Source: Anaerorhabdus furcosa
GTDB lineage: Bacteria; Bacillota_I; Bacilli_A; Erysipelotrichales; Erysipelotrichaceae
NCBI RefSeq assembly: GCF_900167375.1
Contig: NZ_FUWY01000007.1
Span: 1-64,000, forward strand
DNA length: 64,000 bases
Direction: 5' to 3'
Positions 26,439-48,642 of this stretch are shown piece by piece. Every line of letters starts with the position of its first letter. Positions within the stretch are counted from its first letter, which is position 1. A program made the translations under genes and the position numbers. A model generated the notes under the pieces. That model saw only the letters and a list, made by a program, of their open reading frames with translations. It ran no database searches and was not told the DNA's origin.

Positions 26439-26475
26439 AACAAATCTATGGATTGATTTGACGGAGGGAAAGAAA

Positions 26476-28131
26476 ATGAAAAAGTTAGTTTTAGCATTAC
26501 TTACTTTAGGTCTTGTGCTAAGTACTGCTGCTTGTTCTTCTAAACCAGCTGGTAATACAGGTGGTACAAGTGGTGGAACTCACACAATCCGTGTTCTTAA
26601 TTACGAAAGCAAATCTGCTACAGTACTTATGGAATACGTTGTTCAACAATGGGAAGAATTATTTGGAGATTATCCAGTAGAATTCGTAATCGATACACTT
26701 CCTTTTGCTGAAAAATTACAAAAATGTACAGAGGGGGATTTTGAAATTTCATTCTCAGGATGGTCTCCTGACTATGCATGGCCAACTACATTCTTAAACA
26801 TGTGGACAATTGGCAGTGAATACAACGAAGTTGGATACGCTAGTGAAGAGTATACTAAATTAGTTGATGGAACAGACAAAGATCCTGCTCAAGCATTTGC
26901 TGATTTACAAGCAGCTGAAAAAGTATTACTTGAAGATGGTATTTTAATTCCAGTTTACCAACGTGGTGGAACTATGGTTCAAAGCCCAGATGTAAAAGGA
27001 ATTATTAAACATTCAATCGGTTTTGATTATAGTTACAAATGGGCTACAAAAGCTGATGGCTCAATGATTAATTTACTTGAAACAGAAAAAATGCCTTCAT
27101 TAGATGCAATGCTTGCAACTGATGCAGTATCATTCTTAAACTTAGGAAACCTTTCTGAAGGTTTATTAATTCCAGGTGAAGCTGAAGGTTCAGTATTACC
27201 AGGGGTTGCTTCTGATTGGAACTTTGATGAAGCTACAATGACTTGGACTTTCAACTTACGTCCAGAAGCATCTTGGATTAACTCTAAAGGTGAAGTTGTA
27301 CGTCCAGTAAGCGCTGAAGACTTTGAATATGCATGGAACCGTGTATTTGCTGATGATTCAATCGCACAATACAAATTCATGAAAGACACTGCTAAGATCG
27401 TTGAATATGGTGCTAAAGATGACCATACATTCACAGTTACAGTATCTGAAAACGTTCCTTATTTTGAATCATTAATGTCATTTGGTACATTCTTACCAGT
27501 ACCAGTTGAATTTGTTGAAGAAAAGGGTGCTACTTATGGTACTACTCTTGATACATTCTTAAGTAATGGTCCATTCTATTTAAGCAAATGGGATCATTCA
27601 AGTGAAGTTATTTGGTCTAAAAATGAAAATTACTGGGATGCTGATGTAGTTCAAATTCCAGGTGTTACTTACCGTGTAATCGAACAATACGATCCAGCTA
27701 CAGGTGTTGCATTATTCAATGATGGTGCAATTGACCGTGTAGGATTAACTGGTGAATTCGTTGATCAATTCAAAGATGATCCACGTGTTTGGAAATTTAC
27801 TGAAGCTTCAACATTCTACTTCATGATTAACGTTGGAAACGCTAATGGTGTATTAGAAGCATACGATGCAGAAAATGGTGGAAACCCACTTCTTGATAAT
27901 GTAAATGTTCGTAAAGCATTAGCATTAGCATTCGATAAAGCATTCATTGCTTACGAATTAGATAAGAATGGAAACATTCCTGCTGATTACTTCGTACCTT
28001 CTGCATTCTCAACTTATGAAGGTGAACCATTTGAAGCAGCTCGTGGTGAAGGATATATGCACTACAATACTGAAGAAGCTCTTAAATACTGGGAAGCTGG
28101 TATGGCTGAATTAGGTATTGAAAAGAAATAA
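26476..28131 (+). CDS. oppA: Oligopeptide-binding lipoprotein, circularly permuted OppA-like
   Basis: 551 residues. A lipoprotein signal ends at Cys20 (STAAC) and a Gly/Thr linker follows. Residues about 37-191 then match the normally C-terminal lobe of OppA-type proteins (FEISFSGWSPDYAWPTTFLN, AEKVLLEDGILIPVYQRG, and the usual terminal DYSYKWA). Residues about 197-551 match the normally N-terminal part (MPSLDAMLATDAVSF, the VSAEDFEYAWNRVF motif, SNGPFYLSKW, NVNVRKALALAFDKAF) and end at EAGMAELGIEKK, where ordinary OppA proteins continue. The order is therefore swapped relative to the family. Start ATG 26476 follows GGAGGG. First gene of the opp operon, separated from oppB by a hairpin. Confidence 0.9.
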   Translation: MKKLVLALLTLGLVLSTAACSSKPAGNTGGTSGGTHTIRVLNYESKSATVLMEYVVQQWEELFGDYPVEFVIDTLPFAEKLQKCTEGDFEISFSGWSPDYAWPTTFLNMWTIGSEYNEVGYASEEYTKLVDGTDKDPAQAFADLQAAEKVLLEDGILIPVYQRGGTMVQSPDVKGIIKHSIGFDYSYKWATKADGSMINLLETEKMPSLDAMLATDAVSFLNLGNLSEGLLIPGEAEGSVLPGVASDWNFDEATMTWTFNLRPEASWINSKGEVVRPVSAEDFEYAWNRVFADDSIAQYKFMKDTAKIVEYGAKDDHTFTVTVSENVPYFESLMSFGTFLPVPVEFVEEKGATYGTTLDTFLSNGPFYLSKWDHSSEVIWSKNENYWDADVVQIPGVTYRVIEQYDPATGVALFNDGAIDRVGLTGEFVDQFKDDPRVWKFTEASTFYFMINVGNANGVLEAYDAENGGNPLLDNVNVRKALALAFDKAFIAYELDKNGNIPADYFVPSAFSTYEGEPFEAARGEGYMHYNTEEALKYWEAGMAELGIEKK

Positions 28132-28149
28132 GTATACTTATGATTATAG

Positions 28150-28180
28150 AAGAGCGCTGCATGCGTGTAGCGCTCTTTTC
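28150..28180 (+). terminator. Intra-operon terminator between oppA and oppB
   Basis: AAGAGCGCT / AGCGCTCTT stem with a 10-base loop, then TTTTC. Probably a partial terminator, giving more binding protein than permease. Confidence 0.8.
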
Positions 28181-28275
28181 TATGATTTTTTCTTGTTTAC
28201 TAATCTCTATTATTGTAAAATATGATAATAGACATTAGTAAATTAAGAAATAGTTAAGATAGAGAGGGAAGTAAA

Positions 28276-29241
28276 ATGTTCAAATATGTATTAAAAAGAA
28301 TTGGGCAAATGTTGATTACACTCTTTTTAATAATGACGATTCTGTTCTTATTATTAAAAATTACTCCTGGATCACCATTTAGTAACCCAAAAATTACTCC
28401 TACTTTACGTGCGCAATTAGAGGAAAAATATGGATTAGACAAACCAATATTAACGCAATATGGTATGTATCTTTCTAATGTGCTGCAAGGGGACTTAGGA
28501 GAATCAATCGTAATGATTAAAAACTATCCAGTTAAGGATATGGTTGCTGAGCCTTTAGCAATCACAATTAAATTAGGGGTTATTTCATTATTTGTTGGAT
28601 CTGCCATCGGTATCTTTTTAGGGGCTTTAGCGGCATTAAACAGAAATCGATTCTGGGATTATTTCAATACGATTATTGCCGTTGTTGGGGTCTCGGTTCC
28701 AGCCTTTGTTGTGGCGATGGTGTTACTAATCCTGCGTCAGGATTATTTCCCATTTATACCATTGATTTTCTCGAAAGCTGATCCGATTAAAGGAGTAACT
28801 GCTTTGGATGAACTTGTATCTTTGACATTACCAGTTGTTTCACTTTCATTTGGTGTTATTGCTAGTATTTCAAGATATATGCGTACAGAACTTGTTGAAG
28901 TTTATAACACAGACTATATTTTATTAGCTCGTGCTAAAGGATTAAACAAGCGTCAAGTATTTACACGCCATGCCTTTAGAAATGCATTAGTACCTATTAT
29001 TACTGTTATGGGTCCAATGGTTGTTGCATTAATGACAGGTAGTGTTGTTGTTGAGAAGTTCTTTGGAGTTCCAGGACTAAGTCAATTGACAATCAAATCA
29101 ATCAATGTAAAAGATACATTCGTAACATTAGCATCAGAACTTCTATATAGTTTAATGTTTGTTGTTACTATGCTCATAGTAGATTTACTCTATGGGGTTA
29201 TTGACCCTAGAATCCGCTTAAGTGGAGGTGACAAGAAATGA
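28276..29241 (+). CDS. oppB: Oligopeptide ABC transporter permease OppB
   Basis: 321 residues with about six membrane segments. N-terminal MFKYVLKRIGQMLITLFLIMTILFLLL is the usual OppB opening. The EAA loop reads YILLARAKGLNKRQVFTRHAFRNALVP, which contacts the ATPases. The ribosome site is GAGGGAAG, and the gene overlaps oppC by four bases. It forms the channel with OppC. Confidence 0.95.
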   Translation: MFKYVLKRIGQMLITLFLIMTILFLLLKITPGSPFSNPKITPTLRAQLEEKYGLDKPILTQYGMYLSNVLQGDLGESIVMIKNYPVKDMVAEPLAITIKLGVISLFVGSAIGIFLGALAALNRNRFWDYFNTIIAVVGVSVPAFVVAMVLLILRQDYFPFIPLIFSKADPIKGVTALDELVSLTLPVVSLSFGVIASISRYMRTELVEVYNTDYILLARAKGLNKRQVFTRHAFRNALVPIITVMGPMVVALMTGSVVVEKFFGVPGLSQLTIKSINVKDTFVTLASELLYSLMFVVTMLIVDLLYGVIDPRIRLSGGDKK

Positions 29242-30416
29242 GTTGGTTTAAGAAAAATAAAAATGATATCGTTGAAACAAACGTTATCGAAGAAGTAGAA
29301 GTTAAAAAAGAAGATTTCGTCTTTGAAAAAGCGAGTGTAGTAGAAGCAGAAGGATTAATGAAAAAACCTTTAACATTCTGGAAAGATGCTTTTTTAAGAC
29401 TATTACAAAATAAATTTGCAGTTGGATCAGTTATTGTTATCTTACTTATGGTTACGATGGCAATTGTAGCTCCAATGACTTCAAAGTATGATTTAAATAA
29501 AGCTGTAAGTAAAAATCAAACACTTGTAACTCAATTGCCTCCAAGAATTCCATTTGTTGAAAACTTAGGAATATTTGATGGAACATTGATTAAAGAAACA
29601 ACTGAAGCTCGTCTTGCTACTGATTATCAACCAGATGAGTATAAAATTATAGATCGTTATACACGTGATGGTGTAGATTATGTAAAAGTTAAAGAATATA
29701 CATATAAAATTAAAGGTCTAGAAAATGAATATTTCTATTTTGGTACTGACCAAATTGGACGTGATATTTGGACTCGTTTATGGTATGGAGCTCGAATTTC
29801 ATTATTAATTGGTTTCTATGCTGCATTAATTGATGTCCTTATTGGAGTTGTCTATGGAGGTATCGCTGGTTTCTATGGTGGTAGTCGACTGGATGATATT
29901 ATGATGCGTATCACTGAAATATTGTATGGTATACCATCAATCGTTATCTTATTTATTCTATTCATGTTCCTTGAACCAGGAATTGTTCCAATAGCCATTG
30001 CGATTGCCCTTACCGGTTGGATTGGGGTTGCTCGTATGGTTCGTGCACAATTCTTACGTTTAAGAGATCAAGAATTCGTATTGGCGGCAAGAACATTAGG
30101 TGCTAGTCCATTCAGATTAATTATGAAGCACTTGATTCCAAACGTAGTCGCTCAAATCGTAGTTATGGCATCATTCTCGATTCCAAACGCAATTTTCTAT
30201 GAAGCATTCTTAGCGTTTATTGGTATTGGTATGAATGTTAAAACACCATCGTTGGGAACAATGATTGATAATGCCTTAGGTACTACTTATGGGGCAATGA
30301 CTTATGTATATCAATTAATCATTCCTTGTGTTGTTTTATCAATACTTATGTTATCAATTAACTTACTCGCAAATGGATTACGTGATTCACTTGATCCAAG
30401 AATGCGCGGGAATTAG
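29238..30416 (+). CDS. oppC: Oligopeptide ABC transporter permease OppC
   Basis: 392 residues, longer than the roughly 300 usual for OppC. There is a charged N-terminal extension (about 1-45). An extra exported loop of about 95 residues (about 85-170) lies between the first membrane helix and FGTDQIGRDIWTRLWYGAR, the conserved start of the core. The EAA loop is FVLAARTLGASPFRLIMKHLIPNV, and the C-terminus is the typical LRDSLDPRMRG. Overlaps oppB; oppD follows after 12 bases. Confidence 0.94.
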   Translation: MSWFKKNKNDIVETNVIEEVEVKKEDFVFEKASVVEAEGLMKKPLTFWKDAFLRLLQNKFAVGSVIVILLMVTMAIVAPMTSKYDLNKAVSKNQTLVTQLPPRIPFVENLGIFDGTLIKETTEARLATDYQPDEYKIIDRYTRDGVDYVKVKEYTYKIKGLENEYFYFGTDQIGRDIWTRLWYGARISLLIGFYAALIDVLIGVVYGGIAGFYGGSRLDDIMMRITEILYGIPSIVILFILFMFLEPGIVPIAIAIALTGWIGVARMVRAQFLRLRDQEFVLAARTLGASPFRLIMKHLIPNVVAQIVVMASFSIPNAIFYEAFLAFIGIGMNVKTPSLGTMIDNALGTTYGAMTYVYQLIIPCVVLSILMLSINLLANGLRDSLDPRMRGN

Positions 30417-30428
30417 GAGGAGATTAAT

Positions 30429-31467
30429 ATGGAAAAACAAAGAGTACTCAATATTAAAAACCTTCGTGTTTCATTTAAAACTCATAACGGTTTAGTTAAA
30501 GCTGTTCGTGGAATTGATTTAGAATTATACGAAGGTGAAACGTTAGCAATTGTTGGTGAATCTGGTTGTGGTAAATCAGTTACATCAAAAACAATTATGG
30601 GTTTACTTGCAGATAATGCAGTTATCGAAAGTGGTGAAGTTGAATACAAAGGTGTAAATCTTTTAAAACTTCATGAAAATGAAATGGCTAAGTATAGAGG
30701 AAAAGACATTGCAATGGTCTTCCAAGATCCAATGACTTCACTTGATCCAGTTATGACGATTGGACGCCAAATCACAGAATCATTAATTCAAAACTTAAAT
30801 ATGAAAAAGGATGAAGCAAAAGCTAGAGCAATCGAACTTATTTCGATGGTAGGGATTGATAATCCTGAAAAACGTTTTAAACAATATCCTCACCAATTCT
30901 CGGGGGGGGATGAGACAACGTATTGTTATCGCAATTGCCTTATCATGTAATCCAAAAATCTTAATTTGTGATGAACCTACTACGGCACTTGATGTTACAA
31001 CACAAGCACAAATTCTAGAACTTATTAAAGATCTTCAAAACAAACTAGGTGTATCTGTTATCTTCATTACACATGACTTAGGTGTTGTGGCTAACATGAG
31101 TGATCGTGTTGCGGTTATGTATGCTGGTAAAGTAGTAGAAGCAGGTTTGGTTGATGAGGTTTATTATAATCCTCAACATCCATATACATGGGGACTACTT
31201 GCCTCTATTCCTGCATTCCAATCTAAAGATCATAAATTGTATGCAATTCCAGGATCTCCACCACAAATGATTAATCCTCCAAAAGGTGATGCATTTGCGC
31301 TAAGAAGTGAATATTCAATGAAGGTAGACTTCATGTTTGAACCTCCTTACTTTAATGTAAGTAAAACACATTATGCTGCTACATGGTTATTACATCCATA
31401 TGCGCCAAAAGTTGAAAAACCAATACAAATTCAACAACGCATAGATAGCATGCTAAAGAAAGGATAG
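30429..31467 (+). pseudogene. oppD: Oligopeptide ABC transporter ATPase OppD, frameshifted
   Basis: Two frames together encode a normal OppD of about 345 residues. The first (30429-30950) has Walker A GESGCGKSVTSK and the Q loop VFQDPMTSLDP, and runs into HQFSGG before reading out of frame. The second frame carries [24 protein letters not shown] and the H-loop [13 protein letters not shown], and ends at 31467. The break is in a run of eight G (30902-30909); seven would restore SGGMRQR. It may be a sequencing slip, a real mutation, or a switchable tract. The C-terminal cysteine motif of many OppD proteins is absent, as in several Gram-positive homologues. Confidence 0.85.
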
Positions 31468-31473
31468 TTTAAA

Positions 31474-32421
31474 ATGGAAAAGAATGTATTATTAAAAGTC
31501 GATCACATTAAGCAATATTTTAAACTAGACAAGAAAAACATAGTTAAAGCAGTTGATGATGTTTCATTTGAAATCTATCAAGGAGAAACATTTGGTCTAG
31601 TAGGTGAATCTGGTTCAGGTAAAACTACAATTGGTCGATCAATTATTCGTTTATATAACATTACAGATGGTGATGTAGTATTTGATGGTAAAAAGATTAC
31701 TGGGAAAATTTCAAAAGAAGATCGTTCTTTTGTAACACGTAATATGCAAATGATTTTCCAAGACCCTATGGCATGTCTTAATCCTCGTATGAGTGTTAAA
31801 GACATCATAGCTGAGGGAATTGATATTCATAAAATTGCGAAGACAAAAGAAGAACGTGATGAATTAGTTTACAAAATCCTTGAAAAAGTAGGATTAAGTA
31901 AAGAACATGCAGGACGTTATCCTCATGAATTCTCTGGTGGGCAACGTCAACGTATTGGAATTGCTCGTGCACTCATTACAAATCCAAAACTTGTAATCTG
32001 TGATGAACCTATTTCAGCACTGGATGTATCAATTCAATCTCAAGTAGTTAACTTGCTTAAGGAACTTCAAGCAGAACTTGGACTTACTTATTTATTCATA
32101 GCACATGATTTATCAATGGTACGTTATATCTCTGATAGAATTGCGGTTATGCATAAAGGTAAACTTGTAGAACTTGCTCCAGCAGAAGAATTGTATGTGA
32201 ATGCACTTCATCCATATACAAAATCACTCTTGTCAGCAATTCCTAAGCCAGACCCAAGAAGTGAAAAAGTAAGAGTACGTCATGATTATGAACCTAATGA
32301 ACATGATTATGAAAACGATAAACCTTCAATGAGAGAAATCAAACCAAACCATTTCATTTATTGTAATGATCAAGAATTTGAAGAATATAAAAAGGAAGTT
32401 GCAACTCAACATGAGGTTTAG
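31474..32421 (+). CDS. oppF: Oligopeptide ABC transporter ATPase OppF
   Basis: 315 residues. Walker A GESGSGKTTIGRS, Q-loop MIFQDPMACLNPRM, signature FSGGQRQRIGIARAL, Walker B LVICDEPISALDVS and H-loop IAHDLSMVRYISD are all intact. The C-terminal oligopeptide-family extension HPYTKSLLSAIPKPDP is present. OppF pairs with OppD to power uptake; with oppD broken as written, the transporter would lack one ATPase half. Last gene of the operon. Confidence 0.95.
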   Translation: MEKNVLLKVDHIKQYFKLDKKNIVKAVDDVSFEIYQGETFGLVGESGSGKTTIGRSIIRLYNITDGDVVFDGKKITGKISKEDRSFVTRNMQMIFQDPMACLNPRMSVKDIIAEGIDIHKIAKTKEERDELVYKILEKVGLSKEHAGRYPHEFSGGQRQRIGIARALITNPKLVICDEPISALDVSIQSQVVNLLKELQAELGLTYLFIAHDLSMVRYISDRIAVMHKGKLVELAPAEELYVNALHPYTKSLLSAIPKPDPRSEKVRVRHDYEPNEHDYENDKPSMREIKPNHFIYCNDQEFEEYKKEVATQHEV

Positions 32422-39028: not shown

Positions 39029-40777
39029 ATGGATAATCGTATTTATTCTATCAATGGACCTGTTGTAACTGTAAGAAACTCAAGTGACTTTAGTATGCTA
39101 GAGATGGTAAATGTTGGAGATGCAAGATTACTAGGAGAAGTTATCGGTATTACTGGAGATAAAACTACAATCCAAGTTTATGAATCAACAACAGGACTTA
39201 GACCAGGAGAACCTGTATATTCATCTGGTTCACTCTTATGTGCACATTTAGGACCTGGTATCTTGAAAAATATTTTTGATGGGATTGAAAGACCTTTAAA
39301 AGATATTGCAGCTACACAAGGTGCATTCATTAGTGAGGGGAAAACAATTCCTTCGCTTGATGAAAATAAAAAGTGGAATGTGACAATGAAGGTAAAGGTA
39401 GGCGACACAGTAAAAGGTGGAGATATCTTTGCAACATGTCCTGAAACAGACTTAATTGAACACCGTAGTATGATTCCAGTGCATATTTCTGGGGTTGTTG
39501 AAACTGCAGTGGGTGATGGTGAGTATACTGTGACTGAAACTTTAGTCAAAATTAAAAATGATTTAGGTGAAGTATTTGAAGTTAAATTAGCACAAGACTG
39601 GCCAATTCGTAATCCTCGTCCTGTAAGCTATCGTAAACCAATCACACTACCACTAGTAACTGGACAACGTGTTATTGATACCTTATTCCCAATCGCAAAA
39701 GGTGGAGCAGCGGCTGTACCTGGAGGATTTGGAGCTGGTAAGACAATGACACAACACCAATTAGCTAAATGGTGTGATGCTGATATTATTGTTTATGTAG
39801 GTTGTGGAGAACGTGGGAATGAAATGACGCAAGTTCTTGAAGAATTTAGTGAATTGATTGACCCTAAATCTGGAAAACCTTTATTGGATCGTACAGTTTT
39901 AATCGCTAATACATCAAACATGCCCGTAGCGGCTCGTGAAGCAAGTATCTATACTGGAATTACCCTAGCTGAGTATTACCGTGATATGGGCTACCATGTA
40001 GCTATCATGGCAGACTCAACATCTCGTTGGGCAGAAGCTCTTCGTGAAATCTCAGGACGTCTTGAAGAAATGCCAGCTGAAGAAGGATTCCCAGCTTATT
40101 TACCTTCTCGTATCTCTCAATTCTATGAACGTGCAGGATACATTGAAACACTAAGTGGAAAAGAAGGATCAGTAACAATTATCGGAGCAGTATCACCTCA
40201 AGGTGCAGACTTCTCAGAACCAGTTACACAAAATACAAAACGTTTCGTTCGTGCTTTCTGGGCACTTGATAAATCACTTGCTTACGCACGTCACTTTCCA
40301 GCAATTAACTGGAACTTAAGTTATAGCGAATATTTAGATGATTTAGATCGTTGGTATTCACAAAATGTAGCACGTGACTTTACAGCACTACGCTCAGAAA
40401 TGGTTCAAATCTTGCATGAAGAAAATCAATTGATGGAAATTGTTAAGTTAATTGGATCTGATGTTTTACCAGATGATCAAAAGCTTACAATTGAAATTGC
40501 AAAAGTAGTACGTGTTGGATATTTGCAACAAAATGCATTCCATCCAGATGATACATTTGTACCTTTTGCAAAACAATATAAGATGTTGAAAGTAATTTCA
40601 TATTTATATGATGCATGTAAACCACTTATTCAAAAGAAATTCCCAATTAGTTCAATACTAAACACTGGAATTTTTGATGAAGTAATTAAAATTAAATATG
40701 ATGTACCAAACAATAATATTGCATTATTGGATGAGTACTTCGATAAAATCGATAAAGCATTAAGTACAATCGAATAG
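39029..40777 (+). CDS. ntpA: V-type ATPase catalytic subunit A
   Basis: 582 residues. Walker A is [18 protein letters not shown] (about 228-245). The A-type insert of about 90 residues precedes it. [40 protein letters not shown] and [10 protein letters not shown] are classical catalytic-subunit motifs; the catalytic Glu is in GCGERGNE. It hydrolyses or makes ATP with subunit B. Full length. Confidence 0.97.
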
Positions 40778-40792
40778 AAAGGAGGAATTTTG

Positions 40793-42211
40793 ATGGGTCT
40801 TCAATTATTAGGATTAGAAGAAATTAGTGGATCACTTGTAGCCTTAGATCATGTAAAGAATGTTTCAAATGAAGAAATGGTTGAAATTGAATTAGCAAAT
40901 GGATCAGTACGTCAAGGACGTGTGGTTCAAATCGAAGGTGAAAAAGCGATGGTTCAGGTGTTTGAAGGAACAGCTGGATTATCAAAGAAAAATACAAAAA
41001 CACGTTTATTGGGTCACCCAATGGAAATTGCCTTATCAAAAGAAATCCTTGGGCGTGTATTTAATGGAGCAGGGAAACCAATTGATGGTTTAGGTGATGT
41101 TTATGCTGAGAAATTTGCGGATATTAATGGTAAGCCATTAAATCCTGTATCTCGTCAATATCCTCGTAACTACATCAATACAGGTATATCTGCAATTGAT
41201 GGATTAAATACATTAATTCGTGGTCAAAAGCTTCCTATTTTCTCAGGAAGTGGGATGCCACATGATAAGCTTGCGGTACAAATTGTACGTCAAGCACAAA
41301 TCGCAGATGATGATGGTAAAGGTTTTGGAATTGTGTTTGGAGCAATGGGTGTTAAAAACGACGTTGCAGATTATTTCAAACGCTCATTTGAAGAAACTGG
41401 TGTTATGGAAAAAGTTTGCATGTTTGTTAACTTATCCAATGACCCAATCATCGAAAGAACACTAACACCACGTTGTGCTCTTACTGCAGCTGAATATTTA
41501 GCATATGAACTTGATATGCATATTCTAGTTATCCTTACAGATATTACATCTTATTGTGAAGCTCTACGTGAGTTCTCAAGTAGTAAAGGTGAAATTCCTG
41601 GACGTAAAGGATATCCTGGATATTTATATTCTGACTTAGCATCACTTTACGAAAGAGCTGGAATTATCAAAACATCAAAAGGTTCTGTAACACAAATTCC
41701 AATTCTAACAATGCCAAATGATGACATCACGCATCCTGTACCAGATTTAACTGGATACATCACAGAAGGACAAATCGTTTTAGATCGTAACTTACATCAA
41801 AATGGTGTGTACCCTCCAATTGGATGTCTTGCATCATTATCTCGTTTGATGAAAGATGGTATTGGGGAAGGATATACTCGTAAAGATCATCAAGATGTCG
41901 CAAACCAATTGTTCGCATCTTATGCTCAAGTATTAGAAGCTCGTTCACTTGCATCAGTTATTGGTGAAGATGAATTATCTGAAAGTGATAAACGATTCAT
42001 GGAATTTGGACGTTTGTTTGAAAAAGTATTTGTTGGTCAAGGATTTGGCGTGAAACGTTCAATCATTGAAACATTGAATTTAGGATGGGCGCTACTATCA
42101 ACTCTACCAATGAGTGCATTAGACCGTCTTGATCCAGAACTTATAAAAGCAAACTATGATCCAGAACGTGCAATGCGTACCATTAGTCTAGCTCTGCAAG
42201 GAGAAGAGTAA
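40793..42211 (+). CDS. ntpB: V-type ATPase regulatory subunit B
   Basis: 472 residues. Non-catalytic: the P-loop position reads [19 protein letters not shown] and lacks the [41 protein letters not shown] is the signature of subunit B. Start ATG 40793 has ribosome site GGAGG seven bases upstream. Its stop codon overlaps the start of subunit D by one base. Confidence 0.97.
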
Positions 42212-42846
42212 TGGCTGCGCAAGTATTTGCGACCAAAGGAAATCTCATGGCAGCTAAAAAATCTTTAGTTTTAGCTAAAATGGGATATGATCTAATGGAT
42301 CGTAAACGTAATGTACTTATACGTGAAATGATGATGTTGGTTGATAAAGTAAAATTACTTCGTGATGAAATTACTGATAGTTATCAAGAAGCTTATTATT
42401 TACTACAACAAGCAAACGTTTCAACAGGTATTATCACAAGCATTGCAAGCCAAGTAAAAGTAGACACAGGTGTACGCGTTACCTATCGTAGTGTTATGGG
42501 AGTTGAAGTACCAAACATTATCTACAAACCGGAAGATTTAGAAATCCAATATGGATTTGAACAATCTTCATCAAAAGTGGATGAAGCTTACATTCAATTC
42601 AATAAAGTAAAAGAATTAACAATGATTCTTGCAGAAGTTGACAACAGTGTTTATCGTCTAGCCAATGCAATCCGTAAAACACAAAAAAGAGCGAATGCAT
42701 TAAAGAACATTGTTATTCCTGACTTTGAATCTCAAATAAAATTTATTACAGAGGCTTTAGAAGAAAAAGAACGTGAAGAATTCTCACGTCTTAAAGTCAT
42801 CAAAGCAAATAAAGAAAGAGATGCAAATCAACATAAAGCAAACTAA
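42211..42846 (+). CDS. ntpD: V-type ATPase central-stalk subunit D
   Basis: 211 residues. N- and C-terminal helices form the rotor coiled coil: KGNLMAAKKSLVLAKMGYDLMDRKRNVLIREM at the start and RLANAIRKTQKRANALKNIVIPDFE near the end, both diagnostic. Last gene of the operon; a GAGA-loop terminator follows at once. Confidence 0.95.
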   Translation: MAAQVFATKGNLMAAKKSLVLAKMGYDLMDRKRNVLIREMMMLVDKVKLLRDEITDSYQEAYYLLQQANVSTGIITSIASQVKVDTGVRVTYRSVMGVEVPNIIYKPEDLEIQYGFEQSSSKVDEAYIQFNKVKELTMILAEVDNSVYRLANAIRKTQKRANALKNIVIPDFESQIKFITEALEEKEREEFSRLKVIKANKERDANQHKAN

Positions 42847-42869
42847 GAAGTTGGAGACAACTTCTTTTT
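42845..42869 (+). terminator. V-ATPase operon terminator
   Basis: AAGAAGTTG, loop GAGA, CAACTTCTT, then TTT. Confidence 0.9.
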
Positions 42870-42871
42870 CA

Positions 42872-42907
42872 CAAAAAAAATGTGCATTTGAAGTGCACAT
42901 TTTTATA
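42872..42907 (-). terminator. Terminator of the secreted-peptide gene (bidirectional)
   Basis: ATGTGCA / TGCACAT stem, 7-base loop, flanked by an A run on one side and a T run on the other, so it can work on both strands. It abuts the peptide stop codon. Confidence 0.82.
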
Positions 42908-43109
42908 TTGGACCACCTTGATGTGCTCTAGTTTTAGGAACACATGGTGTAGGGCTAGAAGGATCGAGATTACCATTAGAATCATAAATGCAAAACTTCA
43001 ATTCATTTTGTTCTGAAGCTAAAACATTTAATCTAGGGAATGTAAAACATAAAAATAATGTTGAGAATGTCATGGCTGAAATTATAGTTTTTCTTAAAAT
43101 ATTTTTCAT
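42903..43109 (-). CDS. Small secreted peptide, candidate signalling pro-peptide
   Basis: 68 residues from ATG 43109, with GGAGG upstream. A basic start (MKNILRKTII) and hydrophobic core lead to a likely signal-peptidase site VLA-SEQ after residue 31. The 37-residue mature part has two Cys (40 and 56) and ends PKTRAHQGGPI. It is too short for an enzyme. It is divergent from an HTH-repeat regulator, as in PlcR/PapR-type and related pairs where the C-terminus gives the signal. I recognise no homologue. It could instead be an antimicrobial peptide. The longer frame to 43217 has no ribosome site and crosses the promoter. Confidence 0.7.
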   Translation of the reverse strand: MKNILRKTIISAMTFSTLFLCFTFPRLNVLASEQNELKFCIYDSNGNLDPSSPTPCVPKTRAHQGGPI

Positions 43110-43128
43110 CTGAATTCCTCCTACTCTT

Positions 43129-43164
43129 ATTATACTAGAATATTCAGTAAAAATATGTTCGAGA
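43129..43164 (-). promoter_or_regulatory. Peptide-gene promoter with TCTCGAACA box
   Basis: On the minus strand TCTCGAACA (43164-43156) is followed after 21 bases by TATAAT (43134-43129). There is no -35 consensus, which suggests an activator-dependent promoter. The same box and spacing occur at 44495-44530. Confidence 0.65.
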
Positions 43165-43260
43165 ATAAATAAAAATAACCTTGATAAATAGCTAAAAACT
43201 AAAAAAGTTTCCAGCATTCTATTAAATTATCTATGTTAAAATGAATTTAGGGAGATTGAT

Positions 43261-44448
43261 ATGAAAAATAATAATTTAGGTATAATAATACGCAAAAGAA
43301 GAAAAGACCTAGGTCTAAATACCGATCAATTAGCTAAGAAAGTAAATTATTCCAGATCTTATATTTCCAGAGTTGAAAATGGAATCATTGATGTAAGTGA
43401 TGAAACCTTTACTGTTATATTTGAAGCGCTAGGCATAACTTATAAAATAGATCAAGATTGCCGAGAATTCGAAAGAAATGTAGATAAAGTATTAACAATG
43501 TTTCTTTACTTGAATATAGATAGGGATTTTATAGATAGGGTTATAATGCAATCAAATGATTTTAATTGCACAAATGCATATTCAAAATTTCTAATAGCTA
43601 ATTTAGTGTATAAGGTCAATTTTTTGTCAAAAGAAATTGAAACAGAAAGATATATTAAACAGATGGATAAAACATCTGAATTATACAATAATAAAGAAAA
43701 ACAAATTATTTATGATTATATTGGATGTTATTATTTAGATTATAATTATGAATTAGCAAAAAAATATTTTGATAGAGCTTTAGAATTTGGAGAATATCCA
43801 TATTCAACTAGCATTCTTTACTATCATTTAGGAATGTTGAATTATAAGTTTGGTAATTATTTTGATGCAAATGAATTTTGTAAAAAAGCGTTTGATAAAT
43901 TTTCTTTGGAATTGAATTATAAACGAATGTTTTATACAAATCTTCATATTGCAATTATTAATTCAAAAAGTGGAAACTATGAAGCAGCATATGTGTTGTT
44001 TAATGAAATGATATTGAATCCAAATCTCTCAGAGGAGCAATTGGAGCTTATTTATGGTAATTTATGCTGGTTATTAATAAAGAAAAACGAATACGATGAA
44101 GCTTTAATATACGCACAAAAATCAAATATAAATTATTTAGATTATTATTTTCATCTTGCATTGATTTATTATAAATTAACTAGATTAGATGATGCAACGA
44201 AAATTATAGAAATAGGATTATCCAAATTTAAAGACTGTTTTCAAGAAAAACAGTTGATAATTATTTCGAAAATAATTACAAAGGAATGCAACACCAATGA
44301 ATATGAGGACTTACTCGTAAAGACATTCAAACAAGCTAAAAAATCAGAGGATAGTGAGTCTGTGAAATTTATCAAAGATTTACTCATAGAGTTTTATGAG
44401 GCAAAGCATCAATATAAAGAAGTTTGTAAACTCATGAAAAGTTGCTAG
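43261..44448 (+). CDS. HTH plus TPR-like regulator, RRNPP type
   Basis: 395 residues. An N-terminal Cro/CI helix-turn-helix (about 8-62, IIRKRRKDLGLNTDQLAKKV and YSRSYISRVENGIIDV) is followed by about 300 residues of paired helices with TPR character (YDYIGCYYLDYNYELAKKYF, ILYYHLGMLNYKFGNYFDAN, LHIAIINSKSGNYEAAYVLF). This is the layout of peptide-binding regulators such as PlcR, NprR and AimR; the length is nearest to NprR and AimR. It is divergent from the small secreted-peptide gene. Strongly AT-rich with rare-codon flavour compared with the V-ATPase operon, which suggests acquisition. Confidence 0.88.
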   Translation: MKNNNLGIIIRKRRKDLGLNTDQLAKKVNYSRSYISRVENGIIDVSDETFTVIFEALGITYKIDQDCREFERNVDKVLTMFLYLNIDRDFIDRVIMQSNDFNCTNAYSKFLIANLVYKVNFLSKEIETERYIKQMDKTSELYNNKEKQIIYDYIGCYYLDYNYELAKKYFDRALEFGEYPYSTSILYYHLGMLNYKFGNYFDANEFCKKAFDKFSLELNYKRMFYTNLHIAIINSKSGNYEAAYVLFNEMILNPNLSEEQLELIYGNLCWLLIKKNEYDEALIYAQKSNINYLDYYFHLALIYYKLTRLDDATKIIEIGLSKFKDCFQEKQLIIISKIITKECNTNEYEDLLVKTFKQAKKSEDSESVKFIKDLLIEFYEAKHQYKEVCKLMKSC

Positions 44449-44494
44449 CAACTTAATTTGAAATAGATGTATAAACCGGTAAATAAATAATTTG

Positions 44495-44530
44495 TCTCGA
44501 ACAAAATCACTTTGAATTACATGTTAAAAT
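44495..44530 (+). promoter_or_regulatory. Secreted-protein promoter with TCTCGAACA box
   Basis: TCTCGAACA (44495-44503), embedded in TTTGT-n5-ACAAA symmetry, followed after 21 bases by TAAAAT (44525-44530). Box and spacing equal those of the peptide-gene promoter. The leader to the start codon is about 90 bases. Confidence 0.65.
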
Positions 44531-44625
44531 GTAATTAACAAAGAAGATTAAGTATGGGAAGATACAAGAATGGAGATTAAAGAATTTGAATAGCAAAAAA
44601 ATTAAATGAAAAGAAAGGAAATAAT

Positions 44626-45294
44626 ATGAAGAAAATAATTAGTATAATTACTGCTATTACATTGCTTTTCTGTTTTATACAAAAAATAGATGTTTATGCA
44701 CAAGATGATAATACTCCGGGTCAAGTGATAAGTAGTAAATTTACAGAGTATCCTACTTATATAAAAGAAGAGACAAAGATATTAGAAGAAGGAAATATAT
44801 TTGATGTTACAATACGATATAGTGTTGATAACAAAGCATATGTTGAAATTTATAAAAATGGAATGGCTGATAAAATTACTACAATTGATATAAATTATCT
44901 CAAAATCAGAAGTAACGTATTTCCTAAAATATCAATAAAAGCCAATGGAAATAGAGATGTTTATGTCGGAACTGTAACTAGTGTTGATTCTTTAGGAAGT
45001 GGTGACCAAACTACATTAGCTCTTTCGGTTTTAGCATTTATTGATCTTCCTTATGCTACAGCCTATGCGTTGATAGGAGTAGCAATAAGCATTTTTTCGA
45101 GTTCAACATTATTCTATTTATGGACTAAAACGGATACTTATGAGCAATGGACATGGGGAACTACATATGCACCTTCAAGTTTTTTGGGATATTATTGGAT
45201 GAAAACAGAGGCACGTGCATATTCTAATCCTCAATGTACAGGAACATATGCTGTACGATATGGTGATTGGACAAGTACTACTCCAGGGTGGTAA
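44626..45294 (+). CDS. Secreted protein of unknown family, candidate effector
   Basis: 222 residues. A signal peptide is likely cut after VYA (residue 25). A beta-rich middle follows (about 40-120, FDVTIRYSVDNKAYVEIYKN). A long hydrophobic stretch then runs from about 129 to 166 (LALSVLAFIDLPYATAYALI, then GVAISIFSSSTLFYLW), and the tail is rich in Trp and Tyr (YEQWTWGTTY, LGYYW, DWTSTTPGW). The hydrophobic helix plus aromatic tail would suit a membrane-active secreted protein. No family recognised. It is controlled by the TCTCGAACA box and followed closely by a small membrane protein. Confidence 0.75.
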   Translation: MKKIISIITAITLLFCFIQKIDVYAQDDNTPGQVISSKFTEYPTYIKEETKILEEGNIFDVTIRYSVDNKAYVEIYKNGMADKITTIDINYLKIRSNVFPKISIKANGNRDVYVGTVTSVDSLGSGDQTTLALSVLAFIDLPYATAYALIGVAISIFSSSTLFYLWTKTDTYEQWTWGTTYAPSSFLGYYWMKTEARAYSNPQCTGTYAVRYGDWTSTTPGW

Positions 45295-45302
45295 ATTCTC
45301 CA

Positions 45303-45563
45303 TTGCGAATCAATATGATACCATATTTGATAACAAGCTTTATACAGCTTTTGGGATTTTTCATCTTACTATTTTTTTTAAGAAATAATAGTTTCTCTAG
45401 TCCTCCTTTTTACGCGGTTATGTTTTTTGCATTTTTTGAATTAATATTAAATTATATACGTGAAAATTATACATTTTCTAGAAAAAGCCTTAGATTATAT
45501 GAAATTCCTAAAGTATTATTAATTTTTCTTATGCTAGTAATTTACTTTGGAATTATAATTTAA
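45303..45563 (+). CDS. Small three-helix membrane protein, candidate immunity protein
   Basis: About 86 residues, starting at TTG 45303 or ATG 45315, after AGGGTGG (45284-45290) which overlaps the end of the previous gene. Three hydrophobic segments: IPYLITSFIQLLGFFILLFF, YAVMFFAFFELILNYI and VLLIFLMLVIYFGIII, with basic residues between. Size, topology and position right behind a secreted protein resemble bacteriocin immunity proteins. Function is inference; the exact start is uncertain. Confidence 0.6.
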   Translation: MRINMIPYLITSFIQLLGFFILLFFLRNNSFSSPPFYAVMFFAFFELILNYIRENYTFSRKSLRLYEIPKVLLIFLMLVIYFGIII

Positions 45564-45571
45564 CTTTATGA

Positions 45572-45895
45572 ATAGCATTTGGTAGTGTTGATAATTCTAT
45601 TGTTGGATTAGGAACTTGCGACTATTATTCATATGTTACAATGGCGTATAATGCGTGGAAGGATTTAGGAAGTCCTACTTCTGTGGCAGAGGTAAATTGT
45701 TACTATGGTTCATATAACAAAGATTGTAATACACTGGCATGGTATGGGGTTCGAACAGGGGTAGTTAATGGAAATTCTGTACAATTTAGGAATGCTCCAC
45801 TTATTCAAAATCCAAGTCATACATGGAATGGAAGTCCATGGGATTATACACAGCCTTCAGGATGCAGAGTAGTTGTTAATAATTATCCATATTAA
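45572..45895 (+). pseudogene. Probable 3' remnant of a secreted-protein gene
   Basis: The frame is open from 45572 to the stop at 45895, but the only ATG (45641) has no ribosome site. The coded sequence (GLGTCDYYSYVTMAYNAWKD, NCYYGSYNKDCNTLAWYG, GCRVVVNNYPY) looks protein-like, with several Cys and aromatic residues as in an exported protein, yet there is no signal peptide. It may be the C-terminal part of a lost paralogue or effector. If it is expressed from 45641 it would make 84 residues. Confidence 0.4.
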
Positions 45896-46279
45896 TTTAT
45901 TATGATTGGAAATAAAATATAATTATAATTTGTTAGAAATTTAGATTAATATGATGTAGTATAAAATAATATGTGTAAATACAAGAGGTAAGGAAAACAA
46001 GTATAGAAAATTGATATTTGGCTACCTATATTACTATTTTAAATTGCTAAAAAATAAATGCTTTCACTTCTTGATTCATGATTTAAATATGAATAAATAT
46101 TACAAGAAAGATGAATTCAATTGTATTAAAGGACAATACAATAGACACTCATCTTTTTTAGATTGATAACATAAATTAAAAATGTAAAAATAATAATGAG
46201 ATATTATAGATAAAATGGAAAGGTATATAGATAATCTTGAAGATATTTACTTGAATTTATTAAGGGAAGAGAGAGTCAG
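45896..46279. other. AT-rich intergenic stretch with hairpin
   Basis: About 385 bases without a supported gene, very AT-rich. The notable element is a long interrupted hairpin with T run at 46107-46160. Confidence 0.6.
46107..46160 (+). terminator. Long hairpin, probable terminator
   Basis: AAAGATGA (46107-46114) pairs with TCATCTTT (46149-46156), and inside it ATTGTATT pairs with AATACAAT. Six T end the element. It could terminate the island transcript. Confidence 0.55.
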
Positions 46280-46894
46280 ATGAATAATAATGCAAAAAAA
46301 GATAAAGAAAAAGATTTTCAATCGTTAATTAATATTCAAAAAGTGAATGAGAAAAAGTATGTGAAGTCATTTAATGGTGTGTTTTGGGTATCGTTTTCGT
46401 TACTACTCTTTTTTGGAACTTTTTCATTTTTAAATTCAAAAACAGTATCTGATATACCTTATATCTTTTCGATGGAAGAAATTGGATATGATAATAATAA
46501 AGTTGAAAAAGCGACTAAAAGAACGAAATATTCAGGTGATGTTATCTATGAATTATCAGTTTCTTCCAATTCAATTGATGGTGATGAATATAGTCGAGTA
46601 GATATTACGATTTATGATTTTATTTCAAATGATACTGCAGTTAAACTATATAATGACTTATATGAAGAAAATAATAAGAAGATTGAGAAATTAATTGGTC
46701 GTAGCTTGAGTGATTTTGGAGTTGAACATTCATATTCTTTGTATCCAATTGAAGAAATACCAGGAAATGGTCAAGAAAATAGCCTCTATTTATATAAAGA
46801 TAATCGTGTTATTATTGTGAGAATAAACAGTGAGATTACACTTAATAATGAAGATTTAATAACAATAGTAAAATTATTTGATGAAGAATTGTAG
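46280..46894 (+). CDS. Single-pass membrane protein of unknown function
   Basis: 204 residues. A charged cytoplasmic N-terminus (about 1-32, rich in Lys), one membrane segment (FWVSFSLLLFFGTFSFL, about 35-51), and an exported domain of about 150 residues with an alternating beta pattern (VIYELSVSSNSIDGDEYSRV, LYLYKDNRVIIVRINSEI). There is no lipobox. I do not recognise the family. It lies at the end of the AT-rich island without partners on its strand. Confidence 0.7.
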   Translation: MNNNAKKDKEKDFQSLINIQKVNEKKYVKSFNGVFWVSFSLLLFFGTFSFLNSKTVSDIPYIFSMEEIGYDNNKVEKATKRTKYSGDVIYELSVSSNSIDGDEYSRVDITIYDFISNDTAVKLYNDLYEENNKKIEKLIGRSLSDFGVEHSYSLYPIEEIPGNGQENSLYLYKDNRVIIVRINSEITLNNEDLITIVKLFDEEL

Positions 46895-46981
46895 TTTTGA
46901 TATTAGTAATGTTTTTTATCAATATATGATAAACTAATGACATAAAAAATAGTGCTATAAATTTGTGGAGGTTAAATAGAT

Positions 46982-47542
46982 ATGGATAAAAATATAAGCT
47001 TCAAAGATAGAAAAGAATTCCATAAATGGTTGATGAAGAATCAAAATCAAGATGAAGGTATATGGATTGAGTTTGATAAGACGTTAAGTCAGAGTTCATT
47101 GAAAGCTAGTGATGCTTTAGAAGAAGCACTTTGTTTTGGATGGATTGATGGACAAATGAAAAGTGTTGATGAAAATACGTACATCAAATACTTTGCAAAA
47201 CGAAGAAAGAATAGTAAATGGTCCCAAAAGAATAAACAGCTTGTACTTGAACTTGATAAAAAAGGATACTTGCAAGATTTGGGTAAACAAAAAATAGAAG
47301 AAGCAAAACAAAATGGACAATGGGATACAGACAATACAATTGAAGTAGTAAATAGTGATTTAGATTTATTGATTGAAGTTATTAAAGGAAATGAACCTGC
47401 TTATACAAATTTTATGGCAATGTCTCCATCAGTTAAAAAAACTTATACAAAAGCATTTATGGATCCTAAAACAGAAGCAGGGAAACAAAAAAGAATTGCT
47501 TGGATAATTGATCGATTGAATAAAAACTTAAAACCAATGTAA
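46982..47542 (+). CDS. YdeI/OmpD-associated family protein
   Basis: 186 residues. The family signature FHKWLMKNQNQDEGIWIEFDK, then DALEEALCFGWIDGQMKSVDE and YIKYFAKRRKNSKWSQKNKQLV, is complete. Distant relatives have been linked to bacteriocin protection, but the biochemical role is unsettled. The position next to the candidate effector island is suggestive at most. GGAGG ribosome site; shared terminator with the convergent GNAT gene. Confidence 0.9.
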   Translation: MDKNISFKDRKEFHKWLMKNQNQDEGIWIEFDKTLSQSSLKASDALEEALCFGWIDGQMKSVDENTYIKYFAKRRKNSKWSQKNKQLVLELDKKGYLQDLGKQKIEEAKQNGQWDTDNTIEVVNSDLDLLIEVIKGNEPAYTNFMAMSPSVKKTYTKAFMDPKTEAGKQKRIAWIIDRLNKNLKPM

Positions 47543-47544
47543 TA

Positions 47545-47570
47545 AAAAAGTTATCGTGAGATAACTTTTT
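47545..47570. terminator. Bidirectional terminator
   Basis: AAAAAGTTATC, loop GTGA, GATAACTTTTT. It serves both convergent genes. Confidence 0.9.
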
Positions 47571-48048
47571 ACATCGCTGCAACTTCTTTGATTTTATCTT
47601 CTGTTAAACGATAGACAGTCCACTCATCCATTGGAGTAGCACCTAATCGTTTTGTGTAGAAATCAATTGATGGTTGATTCCAATCTAAGCATATCCATTC
47701 CATGCGCCCACAGTTTTTATCTACAGCTACTTGGGCTAAATACTTGAAGAATTGCTTACCATATCCTTTTTTACGATATTCTTCTAATACAAATACATCT
47801 TCAACATATAATCCTTTTTTACCTACAAAGGTTGAGTAGTTAAAGAAATACAAGGCAAAGCCAACGATGTTTCCATCTTCTTCTCCGAATACTACATAAG
47901 CATTTTTTTCTACAAATAGCTCATTGTATAATTGCTCATCAGTCCATATAACTTGATCGCTCATTTTTTCATAAGCAGCGATATTACGGATATATTGTCC
48001 AATAATTGAACACTCTTCTTCTTTTGCAATACGAATATTAAATGACAT
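47569..48048 (-). CDS. GNAT acetyltransferase, SSAT/thialysine acetyltransferase-like
   Basis: 159 residues from ATG 48048, after GGAGGG. GLYVEDVFVLEEYRKKGYGKQFFKYLAQVA holds the acetyl-CoA loop. MEWICLDWNQPSIDFYTKRLGA with a C-terminal WTVYRLT is typical of the diamine acetyltransferase group (SSAT, thialysine acetyltransferase). Polyamine or lysine-analogue substrate is likely but unproved. Confidence 0.88.
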   Translation of the reverse strand: MSFNIRIAKEEECSIIGQYIRNIAAYEKMSDQVIWTDEQLYNELFVEKNAYVVFGEEDGNIVGFALYFFNYSTFVGKKGLYVEDVFVLEEYRKKGYGKQFFKYLAQVAVDKNCGRMEWICLDWNQPSIDFYTKRLGATPMDEWTVYRLTEDKIKEVAAM

Positions 48049-48181
48049 ATATTTCCCTCCGTTCATTGATGTTAGTATACAAAAAGTTGAAAAGAATATC
48101 TAGTTTTTTCAAAGAAGTAGAAGTAATTTACATAAAATCAGTTAAAATGGCTATAAATAAGGGCTAGAATGAAAAAAAACT

Positions 48182-48208
48182 TTGAAACAAAAGCAAGTGT
48201 GATATAAT
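48182..48208 (+). promoter_or_regulatory. Promoter of the sepF cluster
   Basis: Extended -10 TGATATAAT (48200-48208) with TTGAAA 15 bases upstream, 26 bases before sepF. Confidence 0.55.
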
Positions 48209-48234
48209 GATTATGTAAATTTGGAGGTCAAACA

Positions 48235-48642
48235 ATGGGATTAAAAGATAAATTAATGGGCTTCATCGCACCAGTTGATGATGAAGATATGGAAGAAGAA
48301 TTAGAATTCACTGAAGAAGAGGCTAGAACAATTAGCCAATATGAACAACCTAAATCAAAAGGGGTTACTAAAGTAAGCAGTGATACAAAAATGGTTTTAT
48401 TTGAACCAAGAAGTTTTGAAGAAGCAGAAGAAGTAGGACGTCATTTAAAAGAAAGACGCGCTGCAGTAGTTAATCTACACCGTCTTCAAAGAGAATATGC
48501 TCAAAGAACAATTGATTTCTTAACAGGTGTTGTATTTGCACTTGATGGAACTATTCAAAAAATTGGTCATAATGTAATTTTATGTACACCTCGTACAATT
48601 GGTGTTCATGGTGAAATTAGTTTAGACCAAGATGAAAACTAA
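48235..48642 (+). CDS. sepF: Cell division protein SepF
   Basis: 135 residues. SepF anchors FtsZ to the membrane in Gram-positive bacteria. The N-terminus (MGLKDKLMGFIAP) is the amphipathic membrane-binding helix, followed by an acidic linker and the SepF core from about residue 55 (MVLFEPRSFEEAEEVGRHLK, VNLHRLQREYAQRTIDFLTG). Overlaps ylmH by 11 bases. The cluster lacks ylmE and ylmG, which often lie between these genes. Confidence 0.96.
   Translation: MGLKDKLMGFIAPVDDEDMEEELEFTEEEARTISQYEQPKSKGVTKVSSDTKMVLFEPRSFEEAEEVGRHLKERRAAVVNLHRLQREYAQRTIDFLTGVVFALDGTIQKIGHNVILCTPRTIGVHGEISLDQDEN

Follow-up and report, generated by a model that had tools for sequence, protein, structure and literature searches.

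A probable RRNPP-type quorum-sensing pair with a two-cysteine propeptide and a predicted secreted-protein regulon in Anaerorhabdus furcosa

Among described peptide-responsive regulators, NprR/NprX of the Bacillus cereus group and PlcR/PapR are among the systems closest to the locus analyzed here, and both have a receptor built of an HTH and TPR repeats. The nprX gene lies downstream of nprR. PlcR controls secreted proteins, and the PlcR box differs from the TCTCGAACA box reported below. RRNPP receptors have been defined by an HTH together with 5–9 TPR repeats (text of PMC9765709). Several paralogous pairs were described in Clostridium acetobutylicum (Qsr/Qsp), whose propeptides have low similarity and few conserved C-terminal residues; according to the same text, these propeptides are 39–50 aa long, are encoded behind the regulator and end in a C-terminus where L, P and W are conserved (PMC7376267). 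In Paenibacillus, the text on AloR/AloP reports many receptor-peptide paralogues per genome, with downstream peptide genes coding for 32–50 aa (PMC7425212, where AloR13 was studied with a reporter in a laboratory host), and the main text on RRNPP_detector lists 21 novel high-confidence candidate subfamilies (PMC10075063).

We analyzed a 64,000-nucleotide stretch of A. furcosa DNA (the window), which contains a small secreted peptide gene divergent from a regulator that has the HTH and TPR architecture of RRNPP receptors, as judged from HTH_3 and TPR matches and a helical-repeat model. This regulator resembles NprR in having a full-length TPR profile match; however, identity is low, and the propeptide has two Cys and is encoded divergently from the receptor gene. 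Similarity to PlcR/PapR includes the second Foldseek rank, whereas the sequence match of our profile of relatives (A3, below) covers only the HTH and first helices of the receptor (residues 1–143) and the promoter box is different. As in the published descriptions of Qsr/Qsp and AloR/AloP, several receptor-peptide paralogues occur in one genome, but here the genes are divergent, and the propeptides are 65–69 aa long, carry a Cys cassette and end in GP[ILV]. The RRNPP_detector subfamilies have the same general architecture, and in this comparison, which concerned the main text, overlap with an unnamed cluster is possible. The relevant features of the window are as follows.

26458..32421, + strand: opp operon (oppA, B, C, D, F), 11 kb from the pair
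42866..42905, − strand: terminator-like hairpin and T-run 3' of the propeptide stop (−10.7 kcal/mol, z −3.3)
42903..43109, − strand: propeptide gene, 68 aa; homologues also adjoin both paralogous regulators
43129..43164, − strand: propeptide promoter, TCTCGAACA-N21-TATAAT, exact match, one of three in the genome
43261..44448, + strand: RRNPP-type regulator, 395 aa, HTH and TPR repeats
44495..44530, + strand: target promoter, TCTCGAACA-N21-TAAAAT, exact match, one of three in the genome
44554..44580, + strand: leader micro-ORF MGRYKNGD, conserved 5' of four other secreted-protein genes of this genome
44626..45294, + strand: secreted protein, 222 aa, predicted target with promoter box and leader, of no known family
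45267..45563, + strand: small hydrophobic ORF, 98 aa
45641..45895, + strand: ORF of 84 aa, a homologue of the C-terminal region of a 239-aa secreted protein on contig C7 (E 3e-12)

Both genes of the pair lie where the first-pass annotation had placed them, with a start-to-start gap of 151 bp. The propeptide begins with a hydrophobic export signal (approximately residues 1–31), followed in order by SEQNELKF, CIYDSNGNLDPSSPTPC and the tail VPKTRAHQGGPI; its two-Cys cassette extends from C40 to C56. Just 5' of the gene are a ribosome site, AGGAGG, and the box TATAAT; the hairpin 3' of the gene was not flagged by a simple terminator scan. The regulator matched HTH_3 at its N-terminus (E 1.4e-10) and TPR_2 (E 5.3e-10). 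In PHROGs the regulator was matched at the level of the HTH and three propeptides had no match, and no known RNA family was detected in 40000–48500 at E ≤ 1. The 98-aa ORF is possibly co-transcribed with the 222-aa gene, as judged from its position. A structure model of the 222-aa protein was discarded (pLDDT 37).

The 2.4 Mb genome (11 contigs) codes for three full-length regulators of this type: that of the window and two paralogues, L002 (38% identity) and L003 (33%). A broader regulator profile returned the same three, and its other matches (8 of 11 rows), to further XRE regulators, covered the HTH region only. Since both paralogous regulators are also divergent from homologous propeptides (gaps of 156 and 169 bp), the pairing in the window is more than chance; in this genome it is complete both ways, each of three regulators having a propeptide and each of three propeptides a regulator. 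The three propeptides, all divergent from their regulators, have in common C40, Y42, G46, L48, S52, P53, P55 and C56. Conservation of the peptide C-terminus had been proposed as a check, and all three copies end in GP[ILV] (...HQGGPI, ...NHTGGPL and ...IDDGPV), their tails being otherwise variable. The two Cys residues, initially viewed as an oddity, are instead a hallmark common to these propeptides, and the cassette is better conserved than the tail in propeptide alignments. A profile of the three found no fourth copy in this genome, with two marginal rows at E 0.66 and 0.79. A family-wide profile search also gave no convincing copy elsewhere (272 genomes; 3 with a row at E ≤ 0.01, this one included), and the window propeptide class has thus been seen in a single genome. 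No convincing inverted repeat was shared by the three intergenic regions.

The surroundings of the paralogous pairs have features of their own. The L003 pair (locus L096, G000:C2:180000-194000, where G000 is this genome) has as neighbors what we read as an IS30-like fragment, an integrase fragment and a MobA-like relaxase, as well as a LytTR-type response regulator and a histidine kinase; this region is perhaps a mobile or decayed element. Behind the L002 regulator (locus L095, G000:C2:314000-328000) lie genes for an 830-aa FtsX-type permease and for an ABC ATPase, which are a possible target or exporter.

Of the 315 genomes searched in the order, 27 encode full-length relatives of the regulator (E ≤ 1e-20). 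We considered 40 regulator rows, skipping the duplicates L094–L096; L076, which is split by a stop, contributed two rows, and one L068 row lacks the HTH. A small ORF of 22–95 aa with a ribosome-binding site and an export signal was found within 450 bp upstream in 19 of the 40 rows (two of these, L066 and L088, look doubtful), compared with 5 of 65 control genes of at least 200 aa; the control matches include L084, a duplicate of L002, and L074 and L087, small ORFs that also adjoin a regulator. No recognised upstream peptide was present in 21 of the 40 rows; one of them is L058, which matches best among the rows from other genomes.

In addition to the window type, two propeptide types were observed. 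Minimal propeptides of 33–36 aa are divergent from the regulator, contain no Cys and end, for example, in TYGFTIFGPN or TYGFSVFGPN. The HxHxxxCG...C type has a variable tail and is co-directional with the regulator, at most 90 bp upstream of it. A profile of six propeptides of the latter type (A4), run over the 315 genomes regardless of regulators, gave 19 matches at E ≤ 3.1e-4, comprising the six seeds and 13 new ones, and all 13 were directly upstream of a regulator that matches A3. Among 42 A4 rows in total, 23 were weak (E 4e-4 to 0.01) and mostly matched the signal peptide alone; 18 of these loci were covered (L109–L126), with a regulator nearby in two (L111 and L120) and absent in 16, including L109. 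Of these weak matches, the one in G242 (E 0.0019) was directly upstream of a regulator, and the one in G241 (E 4e-4) had no regulator within the 1.8 kb covered; among the other 16 loci, one (L120) had a regulator nearby. A profile of minimal propeptides (A5) matched strongly only at its own six seed loci, and a 19-row profile (A6) matched in four genomes of a 346-genome sample of the class, all of the same order. Thus, the co-occurrence check suggested by the first-pass annotation succeeded both ways in the own genome and for the 13 sister-family propeptides, but not for the 21 regulators that lack a recognised peptide.

A maximum-likelihood tree was built of 50 receptors, leaving out L076, the short L068 row and L164 (broken frame). 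Propeptide type changed 12 times on this tree, compared with 23.7 times in shuffles, none of 200 of which was as low. The three own receptors grouped in a single clade (100/99), and several other rows have long branches and are uncertain. At two further loci (L059 and L061), a divergent 24-aa ORF, conserved in two genomes (MKSIYLSVLSGTFPLFDFYQFLGI and MNLIYLSVLSGTFPLFGFYQFLGI), is located approximately 220 nt upstream of the regulator and could be a still shorter, SHP-like propeptide. In contigs of named genomes, a search with the single regulator found no close relative and the three-member profile returned 23 loci, almost all HTH-level; 15 loci in viral contigs were likewise almost all HTH-level. 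Plasmids and phages yielded none. These results do not support carriage of the window pair by a known mobile element.

Receptor homology was analyzed with a profile of the three own regulators (A2) and a profile of 32 relatives that we chose among the regulator rows (A3). A2 matched NprR over columns 72–394 (4gpk, E 2.3e-12; 5dbk, E 2e-11), the only natural TPR protein matched over its full length; designed consensus TPR proteins scored higher, as expected for repeats. A3 matched NprR (E 4.2e-25) among many other TPR proteins, and also Rap3T, RapH, RapF, RapJ, Rap of pLS20 and Rap105 (2e-17 to 2e-12). Among the curated models of Pfam and NCBIfam, none for a named RRNPP receptor matched the window protein at E ≤ 1, although these libraries may hold no NprR model, and the Rgg_C model matched weakly in 1 of the 32 relatives. 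A single-sequence model of the regulator was all-helical with helical repeats and of middling quality (pLDDT 66). With this model the top three Foldseek matches were NprR, PlcR-PapR and NprR, and in VIA-align, NprR and PlcR were tied with many other TPR proteins. Together with the pairing in the own genome, the NprR and Rap profile matches to the TPR region support the RRNPP-type reading, which had first been offered from the window sequence.

Comparison of the propeptide promoter with the region 5' of the gene at 44626 revealed, post hoc, the common word TCTCGAACA. As a shared word alone it is weak, since 35 of 2000 shuffles were equal in the same orientation and 140 of 2000 in either. Genome-wide, TCTCGAACA-N21-TAWAAT had three exact matches versus about 0.04 expected from base composition; there were also 3 one-mismatch and 26 two-mismatch matches, and a reversed control gave 22 at up to two mismatches. 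Two of the three exact boxes flank the window regulator, one of them in its divergent promoter region, and the third (C7:148674) is 5' of the gene for the 239-aa secreted or lipoprotein-like product. Of three one-mismatch boxes, one is at C4:294214; the other two lie 5' of genes whose products are secreted or lipoprotein-like, with 114 aa for the box at C2:485328 and 52 aa for that at C3:38725. A two-mismatch box (C2:187346) forms the promoter of a gene that adjoins L003 and encodes a secreted protein of 261 aa with weak resemblance to C39 peptidases. We saw no box of this kind by eye in the L002 promoter, and a consensus promoter scan revealed no excess (17 found versus 17.2 in shuffles). As we read the sequence, the poor -35 hexamer with the box just upstream would fit control by an activator.

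The stretch between box and gene in the targets has AGATACAAGAATGGAGAT or close forms in common. A genome search with AGRTAYRAGAATGGAGAT yielded four exact matches, all 5' of these secreted-protein genes; two further matches had two mismatches, and the C3 target accounts for one of these (reversed control, 1). Besides the window copy, the leader is located at C7:148627, C2:485282, C3:38677 and C2:187429. It reads MGRYKNGD, MGRYKNGDKKVK, MGRHKNGDIEEN... and, from TTG, MPNRYENGDNS...; two copies, including one on C2, have no ATG. Third-position changes suggest that the leader is coding, with the qualification that the search pattern itself allowed several of them. In 266 genomes of the family, a degenerate form (up to one mismatch) gave 22 matches in 15 genomes, versus a handful for the reversed control. 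Outside the own genome, 9 of 18 matches (L216, L217, L218, L222, L223, L227, L228, L229 and L230) were 35–190 nt 5' of a gene whose protein has an N-terminal export signal, lipoprotein signal or hydrophobic stretch. The [GA]RYKNGD leader is thus found 5' of diverse secreted-protein genes, both in this genome and in other genera. An 18-mer leader scan of viral contigs returned 95 stretches, most of which are probably chance matches. In several predicted target or leader-associated proteins (L201, L202, L222, L230 and L096), the export signal is followed by [IV][EQ]PR, in the forms IEPR, IQPR or VEPR, which is perhaps a processing site.

The window pair most likely forms a quorum-sensing system of the RRNPP type that induces itself and controls a small regulon of secreted proteins. 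This reading is based on the three divergent paralogous pairs, the NprR and Rap profile matches and the top Foldseek matches; on the excess of upstream peptides over control genes, the pairing of all 13 independently found propeptides and the tracking of the receptor tree by propeptide type; and on the box common to the propeptide promoter and secreted-protein genes and the opp operon 11 kb away. Against it we counted the one-genome propeptide class, the regulator rows that have no recognised peptide, the post hoc origin of the box, its absence at L002, a regulator model of pLDDT 66 that other TPR proteins fit as well, and the interrupted oppD.

In the proposed mechanism, the propeptide would be exported by Sec and then cut, and a short C-terminal piece within VPKTRAHQGGPI would be re-imported by an oligopeptide permease and bind the divergent regulator in its TPR groove. 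The two-Cys cassette would serve as a pro-region, possibly disulfide-closed, and the variable tail would carry specificity. The regulator with its peptide would activate the propeptide promoter, thereby producing autoinduction; by way of TCTCGAACA, located 21 bp before the -10 box, it would also switch on a small number of promoters of secreted-protein genes. Positive control and dependence on cell density are presumed from the example of known RRNPP systems. The opp operon is a possible importer of the peptide. It had been pointed out earlier and is indeed present, but the oppD reading frame (30429-31467) is interrupted, consisting of two overlapping frames split at a G8 run (~30902-30909), which may reflect a mistake in sequencing, a genuine break or a tract that undergoes phase variation.

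In one alternative, the pair is a genuine RRNPP system but a paralogue, or some unrelated activator, acts through the TCTCGAACA box and controls the secreted-protein regulon. We regard this as unlikely and yet deserving some weight: the secreted-protein gene adjoining L003 has a two-mismatch box and an exact leader word, and the box search was post hoc. Nevertheless, two of the three exact boxes flank the window regulator, one in its own divergent promoter region, and we presume that the box is read by the window regulator and not by one of its paralogues. Less probable still is that the small secreted product is itself an effector, such as a bacteriocin-like or surface-active disulfide peptide, the TPR regulator sensing another cue and the tail being no signal. 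Conservation of the cassette above the tail, unusual for a pheromone precursor, would fit this idea, as would the fact that the predicted co-regulated genes themselves encode secreted proteins; but the neighboring gene codes for an RRNPP-type receptor, minimal peptides lacking Cys are found beside other receptors of the family, and the GP[ILV] end is kept in every own copy. As for an accidental pairing of the propeptide with an ordinary XRE regulator that has no peptide ligand, the 21 regulator rows without a recognised peptide would be in line with it, but the complete pairing in the own genome and the 13 of 13 matches in an independent propeptide search leave it scarcely credible.

Our preferred reading, a quorum-sensing pair of the RRNPP type, extends a known kind of system, and its predicted regulon is unusually clear. 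A broader proposal, that these genes represent a wide new RRNPP branch in the order with Cys-cassette propeptides of variable tail, in this species a TCTCGAACA-N21-TAWAAT regulon of scattered secreted-protein genes, and additional translational control by a micro-ORF that every target mRNA carries and that also occurs in other genera, is put forward tentatively, and we lean somewhat against it in this full form. None of three surveys (PMC10075063, PMC9765709 and PMC12700828) has the word "Erysipelo" in its main text. Among 5.39 million papers of the open-licence literature, no paper contained both RRNPP and Erysipelotrich-, and searches for Cys-containing RNPP propeptides, leader peptides, and receptor and genus names found nothing describing this system. 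Within that literature, taken as main texts, we found no published description, and the system looks like an undescribed branch of peptide communication. Peptide quorum sensing would thereby be extended to an order for which we found no description of it, and the questions arise of what role a Cys cassette has in an RRNPP propeptide and a micro-ORF in the target leaders. As concrete candidates, the system offers three pheromone tails together with one receptor family, and one promoter box with five or six target genes.
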